NCBI GenBank assembly: GCA_024742755.1
Contig: JANSXW010000010.1
Coordinates: forward strand, 16,587 to 80,586
Source of the DNA: a bacterium
GTDB lineage: Bacteria > Bacteroidota > Bacteroidia > Chitinophagales > Saprospiraceae
Reading direction: 5' to 3'
DNA: 64,000 nucleotides
In this document: positions 3,295 through 47,966 of the stretch, piece after piece
Numbering within the stretch: position 1 is the stretch's first letter
Layout: each line of letters opens with the position of its first letter
Notes under the pieces: model-generated
Told to the model about the DNA's origin: nothing
The model's database searches: none
The model's input: the letters and a program-made list of their open reading frames with translations, nothing else
Program-made: the position numbers and the translations under genes

Positions 3295-3389
3295 AATCTT
3301 TAGAACAATGGTAATGACCTGGGCAGTTCCGGGATTCGCTACAATTTAGTGCCCCTAAACATCCGACGATTACATTAAGCCCCCAATCT

Positions 3390-4688
3390 TCAATTCAACC
3401 CAACATAATAGTCTCCCAATTGAGGTACAGCACCCAGCCGACCACTTTTGTACGCGTTCAGTACATTGGAGGTATCCCGGACTACTGAGGTGTCAAAATC
3501 TGCCAGGGAATAGAGCTTGGTGGCGCCTGATTCTCTTCTTTCCGTAAACCAGATCGCATCATTCCGGAAAACATCACGATGGTCGAAAAGCTCCCGGAAA
3601 TTGGTCGTTGCCAGCATCTGAGATTTTTGCGCATTGATCAAAAAAGATAGTATAAAGTGTAGGTACAAGTCCGGGTGCAAAGAGGACTCCAACTCATCGA
3701 TTGGAATGATATGACCGTCTTTGAGCAGCAATGCCAACAGGCCGGCAAAGCCATAGTACCGCTTGGTCCCTTCCGATTCCATCCTGAAGGGGAGGCGGAA
3801 CTGTGCTCCACCAACTGTATGCTGCAACTCAACATCAACCGAGGTAATCTTGCCTTTCTCCCTCAATGCTTTGACCTGACTGCTTGCCTTTTCCTTCATT
3901 TGGCTTTCCAGAAATTCGATCAATCCATCCGGAATCGGTACTTCATTGTCCTCTATTAAAATATCTGATACGTTGAAATCTGCTTTCTTCAGAATACTGA
4001 TGACCGTTTCTTTCTCAATTGCTCCGTCCTTCATCCTGGCGGTGACAAAATCGTCCAATTCAGTCTTGGTGTAAACAGTAGGCATCAGGTAGGATTCAAA
4101 CCAGGCTACCGCCTCGCTCAACTCATGAAGTTTGGCATTGATCTTTAGGAAGCCCCCCAGCACTGTGTTATTCCAGAGCGTATTGGACTCCAGCGCTTTC
4201 CGCAGCGCTGTATCCGTTTTGATTTTACTGCCAAAACTGATCTCCGTAAACTGATGCTCCAGGTCCGTTTCCCGCTTGAAGACATTGGCTTTCTTTGGCG
4301 CATAATAATCCAACCGTTCGCTGACGATAGCACTTCGGTTAAACACTACAGCATAGTCGTACCGGACCTCATTATGTATAAAATCGATGCCCAGACGGCT
4401 AGGCTGCTTTTTACTCTCCTCATCAAAAAGGAAGGGAGAAAAATCAAGCTCATCGGTCTTTTTACCTTCAGGTTCTAAAACCAACTTGCGCAAAAAGTGC
4501 AACGCTTTCAGAATCGTCGTTTTACCAGAAGCATTCGCCCCGTAGATCAACCCCAGCTTGAGTAAACGGTACCCGCCTGCGTGTATGACGTAGTGGTCTT
4601 CCAGGTGGTCCGATTTGTCCGCTTCAAAGGTGAGCACCTGCTCTTCCCGGACTGGGCCGAAATTCTGCAAACTGAAATTAATTATCAT
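3390..4688 (-). CDS. AAA15/AAA21-family ATPase (Abi/RloA-like)
   Basis: MIINFSLQNFGPVREEQVLTFEA, Walker A IYGANASGKTTILKAL, Walker B HIIPIDELESSLHPDL, LATTNFRELFD. Confidence 0.75.
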   Translation of the reverse strand: MIINFSLQNFGPVREEQVLTFEADKSDHLEDHYVIHAGGYRLLKLGLIYGANASGKTTILKALHFLRKLVLEPEGKKTDELDFSPFLFDEESKKQPSRLGIDFIHNEVRYDYAVVFNRSAIVSERLDYYAPKKANVFKRETDLEHQFTEISFGSKIKTDTALRKALESNTLWNNTVLGGFLKINAKLHELSEAVAWFESYLMPTVYTKTELDDFVTARMKDGAIEKETVISILKKADFNVSDILIEDNEVPIPDGLIEFLESQMKEKASSQVKALREKGKITSVDVELQHTVGGAQFRLPFRMESEGTKRYYGFAGLLALLLKDGHIIPIDELESSLHPDLYLHFILSFLINAQKSQMLATTNFRELFDHRDVFRNDAIWFTERRESGATKLYSLADFDTSVVRDTSNVLNAYKSGRLGAVPQLGDYYVGLN

Positions 4689-4897: not shown

Positions 4898-6226
4898 CTA
4901 TTCCTTTTCTGCCATAACTCCTTTTAAAGCATTTAGCGCCTCTTGAAAATACTGCTTTTCATGCTTAAAGAAAGCCGCATTTATGGCATTTGCAAACCGG
5001 TCTCGCAGCGAAACCCCTCCGGCATTTTTCAAATCCAGATGGATTTGGTAGATATGGTAGAATGATTTACCTGCGCCTCCCCCCGGACCTTCCTTTACAA
5101 TCGGATCAGAAGCAGCTAATATCCCCTTTTCTTTGAGTCTGTTTTTCAGCTGATCGCCGTATTGAGTATTTTGGGGAGTGAACAACTCCATATACACCTC
5201 TACTTTCGGACGAAAAACGACATGATCGATATTTACCCAAAACCGGAACCTGGAAGCTACTTCAGGTTCAACACCATCCAATAACTTGCCTCCCGATGGG
5301 CTGAAATAAAAGTGCCTGTATTTATGAGCTTTCCTGGAGCTGGGGGCGTAACCACAGCTCTCCATGGCATCATAGACAGACTTGGAGGCATATTCAAGTA
5401 GCTCCTTGTCTTTCTTTTTCAGGTCTCGTATTTCGTCTTCCTTAGACTGAAAAATCTCAAGAAGATCCTCCCTGACCTTAGTATAATCAGTACTCATATA
5501 AAAAGCATTAATATTAGCAATGTATTCTTTAAGAAAGAGCAGGTGGCGGTCGTCTGATTCCAGAAAGCTGCCGTGCAGGTTTTGCACCACCTCATCGATC
5601 AGTTCCTTGTGCAGGATGCTGACATAACAGCCGTCCGGGGGCGGTTTTGTGGTTACGTCTGCTCCTGAGATGGAGAGTATGATCCCTATTTTCTTTTCCG
5701 CCTGCACATCATTCCAGTACTCCTGCAGGTCATTGTATAGCGGGGCGTAGACCTTATTCTCTATGATGACCGCCCAGCTTGATTGGGATTCTGTGTCCTT
5801 GCCCTCTTCTACCTCAGGCGTGTTATCCTGAATGAGGATATCTATCCGCTTGCCATTTTCAGTGGTTTGCTCCCGCTCTACGGTGTACTCGGCACTTTGT
5901 ATTTCTTCTTTTAGGATGCTAAAGCCCGCTTGTTGCGCTTTCTTGTGCTTGTGTACCTTCTGCAAATTGCCCGGTGCATCAGGACGGTCTAACGCCTTCT
6001 GCAGTATTTTGACATCGGCCCCCAATTTGCGCTCGTACACCTTCAGCAGGCTTTCCAGAAAGAGGGTGGAAAAGCCATGCTCTTCTTCCTTGTCAAAGTA
6101 GAACGCCAGAAAGTTGCTGATCACATTTTCCCAGCGGGGAAAACCCGAAATCTCAATCAGATTTTTCCGCTGTTTGGGCACTTCCGGGAGGTCGTCGAAT
6201 AGCTTGTCCAGCCAGGTTAGGTTCAT
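4898..6226 (-). CDS. PD-(D/E)XK nuclease superfamily protein
   Basis: NGKRIDILIQDN...SWAVIIENKVYAPLYNDLQEYW (D-x(n)-ENK) typical of PDDEXK_4-type proteins. Confidence 0.7.
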   Translation of the reverse strand: MNLTWLDKLFDDLPEVPKQRKNLIEISGFPRWENVISNFLAFYFDKEEEHGFSTLFLESLLKVYERKLGADVKILQKALDRPDAPGNLQKVHKHKKAQQAGFSILKEEIQSAEYTVEREQTTENGKRIDILIQDNTPEVEEGKDTESQSSWAVIIENKVYAPLYNDLQEYWNDVQAEKKIGIILSISGADVTTKPPPDGCYVSILHKELIDEVVQNLHGSFLESDDRHLLFLKEYIANINAFYMSTDYTKVREDLLEIFQSKEDEIRDLKKKDKELLEYASKSVYDAMESCGYAPSSRKAHKYRHFYFSPSGGKLLDGVEPEVASRFRFWVNIDHVVFRPKVEVYMELFTPQNTQYGDQLKNRLKEKGILAASDPIVKEGPGGGAGKSFYHIYQIHLDLKNAGGVSLRDRFANAINAAFFKHEKQYFQEALNALKGVMAEKE

Positions 6227-6262
6227 TGCTTGTCTTCTTATCGTTAATTAACTCCGTTTGGA

Positions 6263-7699
6263 CTACATTGGCTTAAATACGATGCCATTAGCGCCATGCA
6301 GCCAACCACGGTTACTTAATTCAAGTTTGAAAGCAGAATAATCAGACATCTTTGTAAGTGTCAATGTTGCTGACCTGTAACCAGTTTGGAGTTCGACGTA
6401 ATACTCAGTTATTTTAGATCGTAATTCACTTGCCTTTGCAGTCGTCCCCATATCGTTAAATCGAATCGAAGTCCTTCCATCCGGCTGCAAATAAAACCTC
6501 CTGGCATTGAGGAAAATACGAACAGCTGTATCATCATACGTTTTTACTCTGTAGCTACTGTATTCTATATCTAAAGGAGAATCATCTTCCTCCAAATAAT
6601 CGCTATAATTACTTTTTGCTTTTGCAGCAGCCTGCTCTTCCTCAGCTCGAATCCTGGCTTCTTCCTCCTCCTTTATTGCATTGACCATCTGTTCTGTTAA
6701 ATACTCTTCTCCGTCAATCACTACCCCACAAAGCATAACACCCGACACCGCATCACTGGTAGAGGTGATTTCATACATCCCAAGCCCCTTTGCAAACACT
6801 GCTCTGCTTTGAGGATTGAGGTCATCGCTCAAATCCTGAGATAAATACCTGTACTGACAAACCGGAAAATTTGGGGCAACTCGTTTCCCACGGTCGGCAT
6901 ACCTGATGTCCTCAAAGTCTTTTTCGTGTAAATAAGATAACTCTGCTTCTCCTCCAATCAGTGGTAGCGTATGGCTTTCCGGATCGAATACTACCGGCCC
7001 TAGTTCCAGTTTTCCGTCGTACTTCCCGAAGTATACGGTAGCGCCTTTCCTGACAAAACTATTGTACTTGGGAAATCCCTCCGAAATATGGATTTGATTA
7101 TCTCCGTCCTCGCCCAGCAACTCTACCCATAGCTTAATCAGGTTATCATCCTCAGACCTTAATACAAAAACAAGGGCTTTTTCTCCATCATGCTCAAGCG
7201 TAGCCTTGTATTTAATTTCCAGCTTCTTGGGCTCGTATTCCAGTAAATCTTGCGTTCCAGGCTCCACATGGTACATCCAATAGTTGCCTACCTGCAATGG
7301 GAAGTACTCTTCCGATAGATTGACGTAGTACTCCGTGCTGTATGGCCTGATATAATCTTTATGTACATATCCGATCTTTTCGCTCCCCTCCTGCTTTACT
7401 TTTAACCAGTCAGATTGATTGTGCTCGTATTCATTTTTGTCACCTACGACTTTTGCCCCTTTGTAGAGCTTTCCAATCACTGCGTAGTCCTGCCCGGGCC
7501 CTTCCCTAAACCGAAGGTGGGTGGTGTTGACATCCACTATGAAAACTCCCAGTGAATTGTCTCCTTCTCTTGTAGCAGCAGAAGCCTCTCCATGTTCTTT
7601 TGAAGCTTGAGCTCCCGGAGCAGATTCCTGGCAGGAATTCATACTGAAAAGAAACAGGAATAGTGCGCTCCATAGAACAGTTGTGTGTGTAGTTGTCAT
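6263..7699 (-). CDS. Lipoprotein with bacterial SH3-type domain
   Basis: Lipobox-like LFLFSMNSCQES; SH3-like RFREGPGQDYAVIGKLYKGAKVVGDKNEY...DWLKVKQEGSEKIGYVHKDYI. Confidence 0.6.
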   Translation of the reverse strand: MTTTHTTVLWSALFLFLFSMNSCQESAPGAQASKEHGEASAATREGDNSLGVFIVDVNTTHLRFREGPGQDYAVIGKLYKGAKVVGDKNEYEHNQSDWLKVKQEGSEKIGYVHKDYIRPYSTEYYVNLSEEYFPLQVGNYWMYHVEPGTQDLLEYEPKKLEIKYKATLEHDGEKALVFVLRSEDDNLIKLWVELLGEDGDNQIHISEGFPKYNSFVRKGATVYFGKYDGKLELGPVVFDPESHTLPLIGGEAELSYLHEKDFEDIRYADRGKRVAPNFPVCQYRYLSQDLSDDLNPQSRAVFAKGLGMYEITSTSDAVSGVMLCGVVIDGEEYLTEQMVNAIKEEEEARIRAEEEQAAAKAKSNYSDYLEEDDSPLDIEYSSYRVKTYDDTAVRIFLNARRFYLQPDGRTSIRFNDMGTTAKASELRSKITEYYVELQTGYRSATLTLTKMSDYSAFKLELSNRGWLHGANGIVFKPM

Positions 7700-37204: not shown

Positions 37205-37299
37205 CTAGGGAGAGGCTGCCAGGCGGAAGCCCAAATAGTTGTCGCGAAAGCTTGAGCTGCTGCCGTGCCGATTCGAGACCCGGCAGTACCCGGCGCCAG
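37205..37299 (-). repeat. Diverged DGR variable repeat (VR2)
   Basis: Gapless match to the template repeat. About 17 differences fall at template adenines and about 7 at other bases (hand count). Confidence 0.6.
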
Positions 37300-38677
37300 C
37301 GTCCCAGCTACCGCCGCGGAGCACGCGGAGAGTACCCGTACCAAGGCCTTTCGGGTTGCGCCGGGGCGAGCTGCTGTAATAATCACTTTCATACCAGTCT
37401 GAACACCATTCCCATACATTGCCACTCATACCGTACAGCCCTAGCTCATTAGCCGATTTCTGACCAACAGCGTGCGTCTTATTTCCGCTGTTATCTACAT
37501 ACCAACCTACACTGCCCAGATTATTGCTGCCAGAAAATATGTACCGCCGGCTGCGGCTCCCGCCGCGCGCTGCATACTCCCACTCCGCCTCCGTTGGCAA
37601 GCGGTAACTACCCCCTGTCATCCGGTTAAGCTTACCGATGAATTCATTCGCCTCCTCCCAACTAACATAATACATAGGATAATCACCCCCAACTCCAAAA
37701 AGTGACCAATCTTTATCCGATTTATCTCGCTGCTGTGCCACTGTAGTGCCCATCACCGCCTCCCACTGCGCTTGCGTCACCTCGTATTTACTTATGCGGT
37801 AAGTATTAAGCTTTACCCGGTGAGTGGGCTCTTCATCCTCATGGCAATGCCCCCATTGCTCACCTGTACAGCCCATCCTAAAGCTCCCACCTTCTACCCG
37901 TACCATATTGCGCTCCAAATCCTGTATCGGAAGAGGGAGAAAAAGCTTACGTAACTCCTTCAGCCGGAGCCGGGCACCAAGGGCATTCTGCCCGGCAGGA
38001 TAATCCGACAAGTACGCCTCATAGCCATCAATATTATCCAACCGCTCCGCGCGCTGCCAGGCGGCTGCTTCTAATTCTGCGGGGGTAGGGCCGGTATTTT
38101 GTGGTTCTGGTTGGGCTTCGTTGGACGGAGCGGGGCTTTGGTCAGCCTTGTTAATGCTTTTGATCCGGGCAGAGATCGCATTGGCGCTGAACTCTTGTAC
38201 GGTAAGTACAATTTGGACCTCATTACGGATTACAGCCCTCCCGACCGGTCGGACTTCACTGAGCAGCTGCAAGACGGTTTTCAGGCTACCGCCATCGGGC
38301 AGCAGTGGGCCTACTTTGAGACCGGAGTAAGAAAAAGACACCCCGCGCGGAAAATCCGTCAGGATATTGTCCAAATACTCCTGCGGGCGGATGTATTGGC
38401 TGCCCTGCGGGCGCAAGTCGTTCCATAGCAGCGACCCGTCAAAAAGGAAATATTGGTTCAGCAGCTCTGAGCGGAACAGGCGGCGGTCAGACAAATCCAT
38501 GTTGGCGTCGCCCAGGTTGTTGAGCATCTCATAGTAGTTGGCAATGTAGTCGGCTACCGGACTGCTTTGGGCAGTCCCTCTGTTCGGCATAACAGCAATC
38601 AACAGCTGAAAGAGTAATAAACTGCAAGTGTAGCAGATTGCCCTCATACGGCGGGTATTGCTCATAAAACTTAGCAT
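37205..38677 (-). CDS. Secreted FGE-sulfatase domain protein, probable (diverged) DGR target
   Basis: N-terminal family domain; C-terminal GNVWEWCSDWYESDYYSSSPRRNPKG...RVLRGGSWDAGAGYCRVSNRHGSSSSFRDNYLGFRLAASP. Confidence 0.8.
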   Translation of the reverse strand: MLSFMSNTRRMRAICYTCSLLLFQLLIAVMPNRGTAQSSPVADYIANYYEMLNNLGDANMDLSDRRLFRSELLNQYFLFDGSLLWNDLRPQGSQYIRPQEYLDNILTDFPRGVSFSYSGLKVGPLLPDGGSLKTVLQLLSEVRPVGRAVIRNEVQIVLTVQEFSANAISARIKSINKADQSPAPSNEAQPEPQNTGPTPAELEAAAWQRAERLDNIDGYEAYLSDYPAGQNALGARLRLKELRKLFLPLPIQDLERNMVRVEGGSFRMGCTGEQWGHCHEDEEPTHRVKLNTYRISKYEVTQAQWEAVMGTTVAQQRDKSDKDWSLFGVGGDYPMYYVSWEEANEFIGKLNRMTGGSYRLPTEAEWEYAARGGSRSRRYIFSGSNNLGSVGWYVDNSGNKTHAVGQKSANELGLYGMSGNVWEWCSDWYESDYYSSSPRRNPKGLGTGTLRVLRGGSWDAGAGYCRVSNRHGSSSSFRDNYLGFRLAASP

Positions 38678-43479: not shown

Positions 43480-44814
43480 TCAGTCCAGAGATAGGCATAG
43501 CCGAAAACCCGTATGGCTGTCCCCATTTTTGGGAGGTATAGAATCGCGATTGGCGCACCTAAGTTCGTCAGCTTGGCTATACCAGTATCCTCCTCTTACA
43601 ATTTTTTTTGCATCAGAACCTGATCGGGCTGCCTTTGAGGAAGACGAATATTCATCAAACCAATCCCAGCACCATTCCCAAACATTTCCACTCATATCGT
43701 ATAAGCCAATTTCGTTGGGAAGTTGTAAACCTACGGGGCTGGTGCTCCGGCCACTATTTTTATAATACCAGGCTAGTTGTTTTGGGTCATTACCTCCCGC
43801 ATACTTATAGCGCTGACTTCGATTTCCCCCTCGTGCGGCGTATTCCCACTCTGCTTCGGTAGGCAATCTATATTTTTTTCCAGTTAGTTGGTTCAACTTT
43901 TTAATATATACATTGACATCATCCCAACTGACCCGCTCTACCGGGCAAGTTTCGCAGGTCTTATTCCGGCTTGGATTGTTCCCTGTTACCGCGGCCCATT
44001 GGGCTTGCGTCACTTCAAACCTACCTATGTAAAAGCTTTCTACCTCTGCCATATGAACGGGCTTTTCAGCTCGTTTACAGTCGCGACCCTGTTCAGCAGT
44101 ACATCCCATTTCAAAACGCCCGCCTTCTACAAAAACCATATTCTTTTCCAGTTCCTGAATAGCTATTGGCAGCTCAGGGTTTACTACGATAGTATCAGGC
44201 GGCTCTTCCGAAAGAGTTGCGGCCTCCTGTTCAGGTTTATTGGGAACAGCGGCGCTTGTGATAGCTTCCAGGTCAAGAGCGGGCAGTACAGGTTCTTCTT
44301 CGGGCTCGGAGATAGGATTAATGCTCTTGATCCGCCCTGAAACTCTATCAGGAGACATTCCGGTGATATGAAATATAAAAGAAAGAGGGATTGTTGTCTC
44401 CTTTTCACCATTGGGCATTACCCCGAATACCATATTTACTGTGGCTTCCGAATACTTCTCGCCCATTTGAAAATCGATCAGCTCCAGCGAATCGATGTGA
44501 AATCTTATGCCCTCCGGGAAGTCTGTAATAATAATATCCAGGTATTCCTTTGCCGAAACGACGGTGGTACCCGTAGGCCGCAAGTGATTGTACACCATGC
44601 TTTCCTGGCCGGACATAAAGAACGCTTCCAGAATATCAGTCCGGAAAAGACTTCTGTCATCCATGGAGTTTCGTACATCACCAAGGTTATTAAGGGCGGC
44701 CAGGTATTCCTTGAAGTAGTCTTCCATGGCTGATTTCTGCCCGGTAAGCAACAGGGGCAGCGTTAAAACTAAAATGGATAACGTATATCTCATATCAAAC
44801 TTTTTCTTCTCCAA
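43480..44814 (-). CDS. Secreted FGE-sulfatase domain protein (paralogue)
   Basis: KSAMEDYFKEYLAALNNLGDVRNSMDDRSLF; YRLPTEAEWEYAARGG; KIVRGGYWYSQADELRCANRDSIPPKNGDSHTGFRLCL. Confidence 0.8.
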   Translation of the reverse strand: MEKKKFDMRYTLSILVLTLPLLLTGQKSAMEDYFKEYLAALNNLGDVRNSMDDRSLFRTDILEAFFMSGQESMVYNHLRPTGTTVVSAKEYLDIIITDFPEGIRFHIDSLELIDFQMGEKYSEATVNMVFGVMPNGEKETTIPLSFIFHITGMSPDRVSGRIKSINPISEPEEEPVLPALDLEAITSAAVPNKPEQEAATLSEEPPDTIVVNPELPIAIQELEKNMVFVEGGRFEMGCTAEQGRDCKRAEKPVHMAEVESFYIGRFEVTQAQWAAVTGNNPSRNKTCETCPVERVSWDDVNVYIKKLNQLTGKKYRLPTEAEWEYAARGGNRSQRYKYAGGNDPKQLAWYYKNSGRSTSPVGLQLPNEIGLYDMSGNVWEWCWDWFDEYSSSSKAARSGSDAKKIVRGGYWYSQADELRCANRDSIPPKNGDSHTGFRLCLSLD

Positions 44815-44917
44815 AAGAGTGGGCCAATTTTCGCCTGTGGCTACTCACGGGCCCACCCGGTATTTTTTTGCCAGCCAAATCCACTTTGACCGGACAGGAT
44901 CAGTGCCGATTCAGCAG

Positions 44918-44935
44918 GGTGGATATCCATCCACC
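44918..44935. repeat. Palindrome GGTGGAT-ATCC-ATCCACC adjoining the 3' side of the template repeat
   Basis: 7-bp perfect stem, 4-nt loop, about 8 nt beyond the TR end. Confidence 0.6.
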
Positions 44936-44943
44936 GGGTTGAG

Positions 44944-45038
44944 CTAGGGGGCAGCGGCCAGTCGGAAGCCCAAATTGTTGTTGCGATTGTCTGGGCTGTT
45001 GTTGTTCTGATTCGAGGCCCGGCAGTTCCTGGCGTTTT
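44944..45038 (-). repeat. DGR template repeat (TR)
   Basis: 95-nt gapless match to 45495-45589; in the VR frame reads NARNCRASNQNNNSPDNRNNNLGFRLAAAP*, with AAC/AAT codons at the variable positions. Confidence 0.9.
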
Positions 45039-45369
45039 ACCAATAGCCAGCCCTTCCGCTTTCGCCAGTTCCTTGCGGATACGCCTCAGGATTTCGAACC
45101 GCTTAAAGGCTTCCGGCTCTAGCTCTTTCTTGTAATCCACTTTAGGCTTTTTGCTATCTCTGCTCTTTTGCTTTCCGGTAGCCATGTTTGGCAAATACTC
45201 CACACAAATGGCCCAGGCCCCACCTCCCGGCTGGCTTTCAAAATGACGGTCTATCTGCAATACACGGTTGCCGCGCAAAAAAGCATTGACCTCCGCCTCT
45301 GCTTCTGCGGGATCGTAAACCGGTACGCTAAAAAATTTCATCTGCATCGCTAAAAAAATTTAAAATCGG

Positions 45370-45384: not shown

Positions 45385-45494
45385 GAATACCGCTCTCTCC
45401 CTCCGGCGTCTCCCTATGGGCGCTTGCTGCGCCGCTGCCCATTTAGGAGGGCCTTCGCTCCTTCGCTTTTTTTTCTCAACCCTTTCTACATGAA

Positions 45495-45589
45495 CTAGGG
45501 GGCAGCGGCCAGCCGGAAGCCCAAATTGATGTAGCGATAGTCTGGGCTGAAGCTGATCCGACGCGAGGCCCGGCAGCTCCTGGCGTCGT
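45495..45589 (-). repeat. DGR variable repeat (VR1)
   Basis: 95-nt gapless alignment with TR (offset 551). 14 mismatches, all at template A residues; the other 66 non-A template positions are identical (hand count). Confidence 0.9.
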
Positions 45590-47966
45590 TGATCCAGCCG
45601 CCCCCGCGGATCACGCGGTAAGTGCCCCTGCCAGGGCCTTTAGGGTTGCGCCCGGATGAGCTGCTGTAATAATCGCTGTCGTACCAGTCTGAGCACCATT
45701 CCCAAACGTTGCCACTCATATCATATAGCCCAAGCTCATTAGGCGATTTTTTACCAACTGGGTGTGTTTTGTTTCCGCTATTGTCATCGTACCACCAGCC
45801 CACGCTGCCCAAATTATTGCTGCCCGAATACTTGTACCCCCGGCTGCGGCTGCCGCCACGGGCTGCGTACTCCCACTCCGCTTCTGTGGGCAGGCGGTAG
45901 CTCCCGCCCGTCATCCGGTTTAGCTTCCTAATGAATTCCTGCACATCATTCCAGCTTACCTGTTCCACCGGGCAGCTCGAACAACCACTAAACTTGCTCG
46001 GGTTACTCCCCATCACCGCCTCCCACTGCGCCTGCGTCACCTCGTATTTGCCAATGCGGTAGCTGCTCAGCTCTACACGGTGCGCCGGCTTCTCATCGTC
46101 ATCACAATTACTTTGTTCCGAGGTGCAGCCCATCGTAAAGCTGCCGCCGGATACACGGACCATACTCCGCTCCAGCGCCTCTATGGGGGCAGGCAGGGCT
46201 GGCTTGCGCAGCGCTTCCAGCCGGCTGTGCGCCTCCCTGGCGTGTGCACCATCTGGGTAATCCCGCAAGTATGATTCATAGGAAGATACCGTGTTCTTGG
46301 CCTTCGCTTCTGACCAGGCCGACAATTCGGACAGCTCAGCTAAGCGGCTGCGTGCCTCTCTGGCGTGTTCCCCATCCGGGTAGTCCTGAAGGTAAGACTC
46401 GTACGAAGATGCTGTATTACGCCGCCGCGCTTCTGACCAGGCTGACGATTCGGACAGCTCAGCTAACTTTTCCTCGCATTTTGATATGCCTGCCTTGGCT
46501 GCACTGTCATCTGATACCAGGCCCAGAGCGCTCTTGTATTTGCCCAGCGCTCGCTCGTAGTTGCCCCGGTCATAGTTGCGCCCGGCTGACGCTATGATCG
46601 CATCGTACTCCTCCTGCTTTGAGTCAGATTCCGCTGCCTCTTCCGGCTCCTCTAATTCCGGGGAATCTTCAGCAACAGCTGCCACAGGGGTATCCCCGGC
46701 CGGACCTACAACCGATAAAAACTCCGCCAATGCACCGGCCTCGTCTATGCGAAGCAGGCTGTCCCCACGGGACACTTGCGCATAACCACCTGAAAACAAC
46801 CCCGCAGAGTCATAAACGGCCGGCAGCACATAGCTCTCAGATTCATCTGCATAACCCCACTTCCCGGAAGCATCCTGAACCGGCTGAAGCGTCGACCCTG
46901 AAGGGCTGCTCTGCAGCCACCATACCACACCAACTACCGTGGCAGCGGTGAGCAGGGCCACCAATAACAGCGGTAGCCATCTGCGGGGCTGCGGGGCTGC
47001 ATCTGGACGGGGTGGTGGTTTGGGCACCGAGGCTTTAGCCATTCTCCGAACCGGAGGTTTCAACTCAGGGTCGGGTAGCGTTTGGTCTACAAGCGTCCCT
47101 TCTTTGTCCTTTGCCGTATCATTGGTTTTACCGCCCAGCCACTGGGCTTTGACACGGGCAGCCCTTTCTTCCGGTTTTTTGACCAGAAAAGCCGCAACAG
47201 CTTCTGCAAAAGGTTGTGGAATTTGTGCGGTCTCCGGTGGCAGGGGCGCATTCACGATCTGGTCAAAAAGCTCGCGGTCGCGAGCGGCACTACTGCCTTC
47301 CGCCCCCGCTGTACGGAACGGCCGGTAGCCCAGAAAAAGCTCAAAGAGGAGCACGCCCGCCGACCACAGGTCAGCATTGAGGCGTATGGGCTTGCCCAGC
47401 AGTTGCTCGGGCGCAGAGTAGGCCAGGGTCCCCCCGGTCAGGCTATTGGTAAAGCGGGAGCCCTCACCGACCTGCTTGCTCAGCCCGAAATCGGCAATCT
47501 TGGGGATATACTGCTGCCCCACCTTGGCGATCAGGATATTGGAAGGTTTGAGGTCGCGGTGGATTACGCCATGCCCGTGCAGATGCGAGAGCCCCCGCAG
47601 CAGGCCCGAAGCGATGTCGCGGCGCTGCTGTGCGTTCAGTTGGCCTATGTCGAGCAATTGGCGGAGGTTGCCATCCGGGTAGTATTGCATCACGGCATAG
47701 TCGAAGATGCCTGCGGGGGACTCGAACTGCCAGACGTTCTCGTAGTGGGCGAGGTTGCGGTGTTCGGGCAGCCCGGCGACCGCTTTGAGCTCATCCTCAA
47801 GGGAGAAGGTTTTGTCATTCACCGTCTTTACCTCTGCCACTTTGATGGCTACGTAGCGGTCGCGGGTAGTGTCGTAGGCTTTGTACACCGTACCAAAGGT
47901 ACCGCCCCCGAGGCGGTCGTTTCGAACATTGAATTGGTAGCGCTGCAGGAATTGCTGTTGGTTCAT
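45495..47966 (-). CDS. Transmembrane Ser/Thr protein kinase with WG-like segment, tandem TPR-like repeats and C-terminal FGE-sulfatase domain; DGR target
   Basis: Kinase LGGGTFGTVYKAYD, HRDLKPSNILI, IADFGLSKQ; TM RRWLPLLLVALLTAATVVGVVWWLQ; VQDASGKWGYADESESYVLPAVYDSAGLF; two ~41-aa repeats (AWSEARRRNTASSYESYLQDYPDGEHAREARSRLAELSELS); C-terminal RVIRGGGWINDARSCRASRRISFSPDYRYINLGFRLAAAP. Confidence 0.9.
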   Translation of the reverse strand: MNQQQFLQRYQFNVRNDRLGGGTFGTVYKAYDTTRDRYVAIKVAEVKTVNDKTFSLEDELKAVAGLPEHRNLAHYENVWQFESPAGIFDYAVMQYYPDGNLRQLLDIGQLNAQQRRDIASGLLRGLSHLHGHGVIHRDLKPSNILIAKVGQQYIPKIADFGLSKQVGEGSRFTNSLTGGTLAYSAPEQLLGKPIRLNADLWSAGVLLFELFLGYRPFRTAGAEGSSAARDRELFDQIVNAPLPPETAQIPQPFAEAVAAFLVKKPEERAARVKAQWLGGKTNDTAKDKEGTLVDQTLPDPELKPPVRRMAKASVPKPPPRPDAAPQPRRWLPLLLVALLTAATVVGVVWWLQSSPSGSTLQPVQDASGKWGYADESESYVLPAVYDSAGLFSGGYAQVSRGDSLLRIDEAGALAEFLSVVGPAGDTPVAAVAEDSPELEEPEEAAESDSKQEEYDAIIASAGRNYDRGNYERALGKYKSALGLVSDDSAAKAGISKCEEKLAELSESSAWSEARRRNTASSYESYLQDYPDGEHAREARSRLAELSELSAWSEAKAKNTVSSYESYLRDYPDGAHAREAHSRLEALRKPALPAPIEALERSMVRVSGGSFTMGCTSEQSNCDDDEKPAHRVELSSYRIGKYEVTQAQWEAVMGSNPSKFSGCSSCPVEQVSWNDVQEFIRKLNRMTGGSYRLPTEAEWEYAARGGSRSRGYKYSGSNNLGSVGWWYDDNSGNKTHPVGKKSPNELGLYDMSGNVWEWCSDWYDSDYYSSSSGRNPKGPGRGTYRVIRGGGWINDARSCRASRRISFSPDYRYINLGFRLAAAP

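Follow-up and report, generated by a model that had tools for sequence, protein, structure and literature searches.

An HRDC-type DGR cassette of a Saprospiraceae bacterium that very probably lost its reverse transcriptase by internal deletion and retains its template repeat

How does a DGR cassette with a closely matching template repeat (TR) and variable repeat (VR) come to stand without a reverse transcriptase (RT), and is such a cassette still alive? The question is raised by a locus on the minus strand of the window, that is, the whole 64-kb stretch of Saprospiraceae DNA analysed here. A sequence-only reading of the window had reported a 168-aa ORF that begins like a DGR accessory gene and then enters the TR where an HRDC-type domain would be expected, and had proposed either a deletion remnant or an orphan cassette served in trans by an RT elsewhere. 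The ORF exists. On the minus strand, the order of the parts is the target gene (47966-45495), VR1, the accessory ORF (from 45347), the TR (45036-44940) and an FGE gene (44814-43480). The features, with the evidence for each, are as follows.

45495..47966, minus strand: target gene, 823 aa, a Ser/Thr kinase with WG repeat and FGE (C-type-lectin-fold) domain (Pfam Pkinase, WG_beta_rep and FGE-sulfatase above cut-off), with VR1 as its 3' end
45491..45586, minus strand: VR1, the segment alignable to the surviving TR (TR/VR alignment)
45049..45347, minus strand: remnant of the DGR accessory gene, its first ~100 aa (84% aa identity to the HRDC-type accessory of the congener G002)
45037..45053, minus strand: RT footprint GGGCTGGCTATTGGTAA, the GLPIGN codons of the RT GxPIGNLTSQ motif (16/17 match to the G002 RT codons)
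44940..45036, minus strand: TR, with ~42 nt of the 5' end deleted (96% identical to the G002 TR; TR pattern match)
44810..44939, minus strand: TR 3' flank (TR RNA spacer), retained, with the GGTGGATGGATATCCACC inverted repeat (82% identical to G002, 43% to contig C89 of the same genome)
44841..45347, minus strand: 168-aa fusion ORF, which reads the TR outside the TR's natural frame
43480..44814, minus strand: downstream FGE gene (Pfam FGE; DNA colinearity with G002, at 77%, continues into the gene)
37205..37341, minus strand: VR2, the older variable repeat, in the terminal part of the FGE ORF 37205-38677

The target and the repeats are those of a DGR. The Pfam FGE-sulfatase domain occupies residues 600-820 of the 823-aa target, which combines a C-type-lectin/FGE fold with a C-terminal VR; judged against the G002 TR, the full VR1 reaches ~45629. 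Over the 96 nt that could be aligned, the TR and VR1 showed 13 mismatches, of which 12 were at TR adenines (P about 2e-6 for a bias of this size by chance), the kind of near-repeat that characterizes a DGR. The sole non-adenine mismatch, C in the TR and T in VR1, lies directly past the stop codon. Because the same contrast, AGC in the TR against AGT in the VR, was found in nearly all TR/VR pairs of relatives, this mismatch is best taken for an IMH*/IMH mark rather than drift. As to the machinery, no RT was detected in the 64-kb window by tblastn with two DGR RTs, as the sequence-only reading had also found from the ORFs. Pfam detected no HRDC in the window ORF, which keeps the N-terminal part of the accessory protein with only the beginning of the domain.

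An intact counterpart of the cassette is present in the congener G002, where a kinase-FGE target, an accessory gene with HRDC, an RT with YMDD, a TR and an FGE gene are arranged colinearly with the window. The DNA of the two is 79-84% identical as far as accessory residue ~100 and 77% identical where colinearity resumes, at the TR and on into the FGE gene, and relative to G002 the window is without ~1.2 kb, comprising the end of the HRDC domain, the RT and ~42 nt of the TR 5' end. The full G002 TR bears out the earlier suspicion of a 5'-truncated TR, whose homology to VR1 ends at ACGCC; Pfam places HRDC at aa 82-146 of the G002 accessory, and the accessory on C89 has the domain as well. The TR lies 3' of the RT in 20/20 relatives' cassettes having this accessory and RT, so an internal deletion accounts for all the missing parts together; other layouts were seen in L106, L108 and L116, three cassettes that have a distant RT and lack an HRDC gene. 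The sequence-only reading was mistaken in expecting the RT 3' of the TR and in seeing the FGE gene in its place. The same FGE gene lies 3' of the TR in G002, and 43480-44814 was rejected as an RT replacement on this ground; it is an original neighbour of the cassette.

The junction retains a trace of the lost enzyme. The fusion ORF enters the TR from 45036, after ~100 accessory residues, and the 12 bases separating the accessory sequence from the TR belong to neither. Together with the preceding GGGCT, these bases form the footprint listed above, which is identical at 16 of its 17 positions to the G002 RT at GLPIGN (from offset 178). As a control, the deleted segment was shuffled, and 0 of 300 shuffles reached 16 matches; PIGNLTSQ is invariant in 8 aligned DGR RTs. 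The 17-nt footprint shows that the locus once had an RT, exactly at this junction. The earlier description of an accessory-like ORF entering the TR is thus right for the first 100 aa and for the point of entry, but the bases immediately preceding the TR are RT scrap, not accessory sequence. GGGCT is common to the accessory end and the RT footprint, constituting a microhomology. The continuation of the reading frame into the TR is accidental. Given the colinear intact ortholog and the RT footprint, we hold with high confidence that the window locus is a degenerate HRDC-type DGR, formed by internal deletion from a complete cassette; of the two origins first proposed, this is the deletion remnant.

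Two other readings bear on this junction. In one of them, already disfavoured, the short accessory-TR fusion is a conserved and functional minimal DGR design. The ORF is indeed open, and its accessory part shows a dN/dS of 0.13 (dS = 0.62) against G002, but this ratio also reflects the long period that preceded the deletion, the ORF runs out of frame through the TR, and the other RT-less cassettes described below are broken at other points. Conservation of the fusion in relatives was what the sequence-only reading had named as speaking against its own view; it was sought, and no such fusion was seen in any relative examined, leaving this design extremely improbable. The other reading, which we judge to be very unlikely, is that of an assembly artefact or a minority strain variant, the real genome having an RT at this locus. 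The junction contains mutated RT scrap, and no long repeat that could cause a misjoin is present there; the sequence on either side is colinear with G002, and the missing RT is on no other contig. These observations outweigh the draft state of an assembly with a eukaryote-like contig and the precedent of intact and broken DGR loci coexisting in Thiohalocapsa (PMC10907252).

Under the deletion model, the ancestor would have had a G002-like layout of a kinase-FGE target with VR, an accessory gene with HRDC, an RT and a TR. As the adenine-only differences suggest, the TR RNA would have been reverse-transcribed with random bases placed opposite adenines, and the cDNA would have overwritten VR1. 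An internal deletion, as the comparison with G002 shows, then took the HRDC part of the accessory gene, the RT except for ~12-17 bases of GLPIGN, and ~42 bases of the TR 5' end. It may have occurred in two steps or as one complex event, GGGCT probably serving as the left-hand microhomology. Since then, the cassette has been unable to act alone, being either newly dead or dependent on the RT of C89.

This RT is the only DGR RT that was found in a genome-wide search of the kind advised by the sequence-only reading, and it lies outside the window. In the 6.95-Mb assembly, matches to the RVT_1 profile were limited to C89 and a fragment on contig C78, C89 was the sole match to the G002 RT used as a query, and a protein scan of the genome contigs with the accessory N-terminus gave no match. 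The assembly is a draft of 436 contigs and 92.5% complete, and a second RT could be absent from it. The cassette on C89 is complete, with an FGE target, an accessory gene with HRDC, an RT with YMDD and a TR, and 18/18 of its TR/VR mismatches are at adenine. Its RT is 48.5% identical to that of G002, the type lost from the window. The match on C78, a contig of 1.45 kb, is a eukaryote-like reverse transcriptase fragment; C78 is probably contamination in the assembly, and the match was set aside as such.

Leaving aside the end mark, every difference between the TR and VR1 is at a TR adenine, so the cassette was active until recently. Changes in the window TR relative to the G002 TR (e.g. GGGTC to GGGCC) are also present in VR1; as these window-specific changes are common to both repeats, homing continued past the split between the window and G002 species. 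With ~0.31 synonymous changes per site on the window branch and ~68 non-adenine TR sites, ~21 changes would be expected had these sites drifted along the whole branch, as compared with none observed between the TR and VR1 besides the end mark. The last homing would accordingly date to within roughly the last 14% of the window branch (95% bound, assuming a neutral TR and a steady clock). VR2 showed 21/29 mismatches at A with the G002 TR and 13/20 with the window TR. It is nearer to the G002 TR than to the window TR, so it has apparently had no recent rewriting.

So fresh a TR/VR1 pair is compatible with a recent deletion and also with continued service in trans. We therefore considered a live orphan cassette, in which the truncated TR and VR1 are still homing with the help of the C89 RT and its accessory protein. 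This remains an unlikely, though by no means negligible, explanation. The C89 cassette looks active by its adenine-only mismatches, and the TR and VR1 of the window match at all non-adenine sites save the end mark despite the dS of 0.62 from G002. The same genome has an RT-less cassette on C288 with an adenine-only pair (15/15), the TR of which has a matching VR on C102, a third contig; an unrelated genome, G111, also combines an RT-less cassette (13/13) with a separate RT, and trans action has been inferred in Thiohalocapsa (PMC10907252). However, the TR 3' flank of the window is 43% identical to that of C89 as against 82% to that of G002, and the C89 RT is only 48.5% identical to that of G002, so that the cognate enzyme is gone. 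The TR, besides, has lost its 5' end. The recent deletion, moreover, accounts equally well for the fresh look of the pair. C288 would be a better candidate than the window cassette for service by C89, because its 3' flank is 64% identical to that of C89, compared with 43% for the window.

A TR-pattern search of 399 genomes, in which the reversed control pattern gave 0 matches, found 27 TRs in 19 genomes. Including G002 and G001, 23 of 29 TRs had an RT at the locus, one was cut by a contig end, and in five, namely the window, C288, G111:C18, G261:C128 and G001:C25, the RT was deleted, replaced or interrupted. At C288 (L062, source genome G000; 5884-6390), a caspase-FGE target has its VR at 6390-6265, followed ~255 nt on by a full TR at 6009-5884, with 15/15 TR/VR mismatches at A and no accessory gene or RT between the VR and the TR. 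Upstream of this TR are ~40 nt that look like an RT 3' end, and the leader is similar to the one on C102. On C102 (L063, G000; 6300-6660), the VR of a caspase-FGE target matches the C288 TR (15/17 mismatches at A); ~20 codons from the start of an accessory gene come next, and a TR was not found at this locus. In G111:C18 (L031; 5877-6427), from another family of the same order as the source, the accessory gene continues into the last ~30 RT codons and then a full TR, with 13/13 mismatches at A and a different RT elsewhere in the genome; this is an independent RT deletion. The RT-deleted cassettes of C288 and G111 fit recurrent RT loss, possibly with trans service, and the three related TRs and further VRs in the source genome suggest that such cassettes are part of a recurrent birth-and-decay process. 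It is conceivable, if rather doubtful, that DGRs recurrently give rise to a non-autonomous, MITE-like form, the RT-less TR/VR cassette, stripped of RT and accessory gene by internal deletions but spared in its TR and VR, and diversified in trans by a complete DGR elsewhere in the genome.

The remaining two loci are broken in other ways. In G261:C128 (L105; ~3350-4350), an ORF that resembles a REP-associated tyrosine transposase (RAYT-like), with imperfect repeats flanking it, stands in place of most of the RT; the accessory gene, the RT tail and the TR are retained. No TR/VR pair was found in G261, and its use as a negative control for trans service was dropped on account of a distant RT match on G261:C28. 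In G001:C25 (L039; 3600-6418), ~140 nt interrupt the RT with a frame change just 5' of YMDD, the accessory gene has a ~35-aa insertion, and the TR lies 1 kb further on, past another FGE gene. A wide scan of named genomes gave 118 loci, 23 of them without an RT by HMM, numbers unfit for a rate since many of the loci are truncated and distant RTs may go undetected. L187 (Nostoc sp. MG11) and L206 (a Gammaproteobacteria MAG) also have TR/VR pairs whose mismatches are mostly at adenine, and no RT was detected within the 8 kb examined.

HRDC-accessory DGRs are known, e.g. in Treponema denticola, which resembles the type described here in its VR target, its HRDC accessory gene overlapping the RT gene and its adenine-specific TR/VR differences (PMC4891356). 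There, the accessory gene lies between the TR and the RT, whereas in the Saprospiraceae relatives and the window type the TR lies past the RT; the window copy, unlike the T. denticola DGR, has lost its RT and HRDC. In Thiohalocapsa PB-PSB1, DGR loci with a missing or broken RT or TR accompany complete ones in one genome, and trans action was proposed (PMC10907252). The source genome is alike in having degenerate loci alongside a complete one, but in Thiohalocapsa the decay goes with transposons and MITE-like repeats (PMC10907252), and at the window locus with an internal deletion that shows short microhomology and RT scrap. Cyanobacterial DGRs have remote VR targets, kinase-CLec proteins among them, with several VR genes served by one genome's machinery (PMC7517822); these remote targets are without a TR, whereas the RT-less window locus retains its own. 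A large DGR survey picked its candidates by RT first (PMC8144416), so RT-less templates were invisible to it, and a TR-pattern search finds templates that RT-anchored surveys would miss. The window cassette is a degenerate DGR of an already known kind, and the recurrence of RT-less cassettes keeping their TR is its most interesting side. It offers a clear molecular record of DGR enzyme loss, in which a sister copy is still intact, the TR/VR pair can be roughly dated and the scar contains RT scrap. Since the genome also has a complete cassette and another that lacks an RT, the trans service of foreign templates is testable within one organism.

The DGR of Bordetella phage BPP-1 shows adenine mutagenesis and a TR/VR pair whose 3' end is marked (IMH vs IMH*), both of which the window cassette shares; the BPP-1 DGR differs in being complete and in using Avd, not an HRDC protein. 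Among the relatives, TRs end in AGCTCA and VRs in AGT, a nearly uniform mark and a candidate for the IMH*/IMH rule in this group of DGRs.
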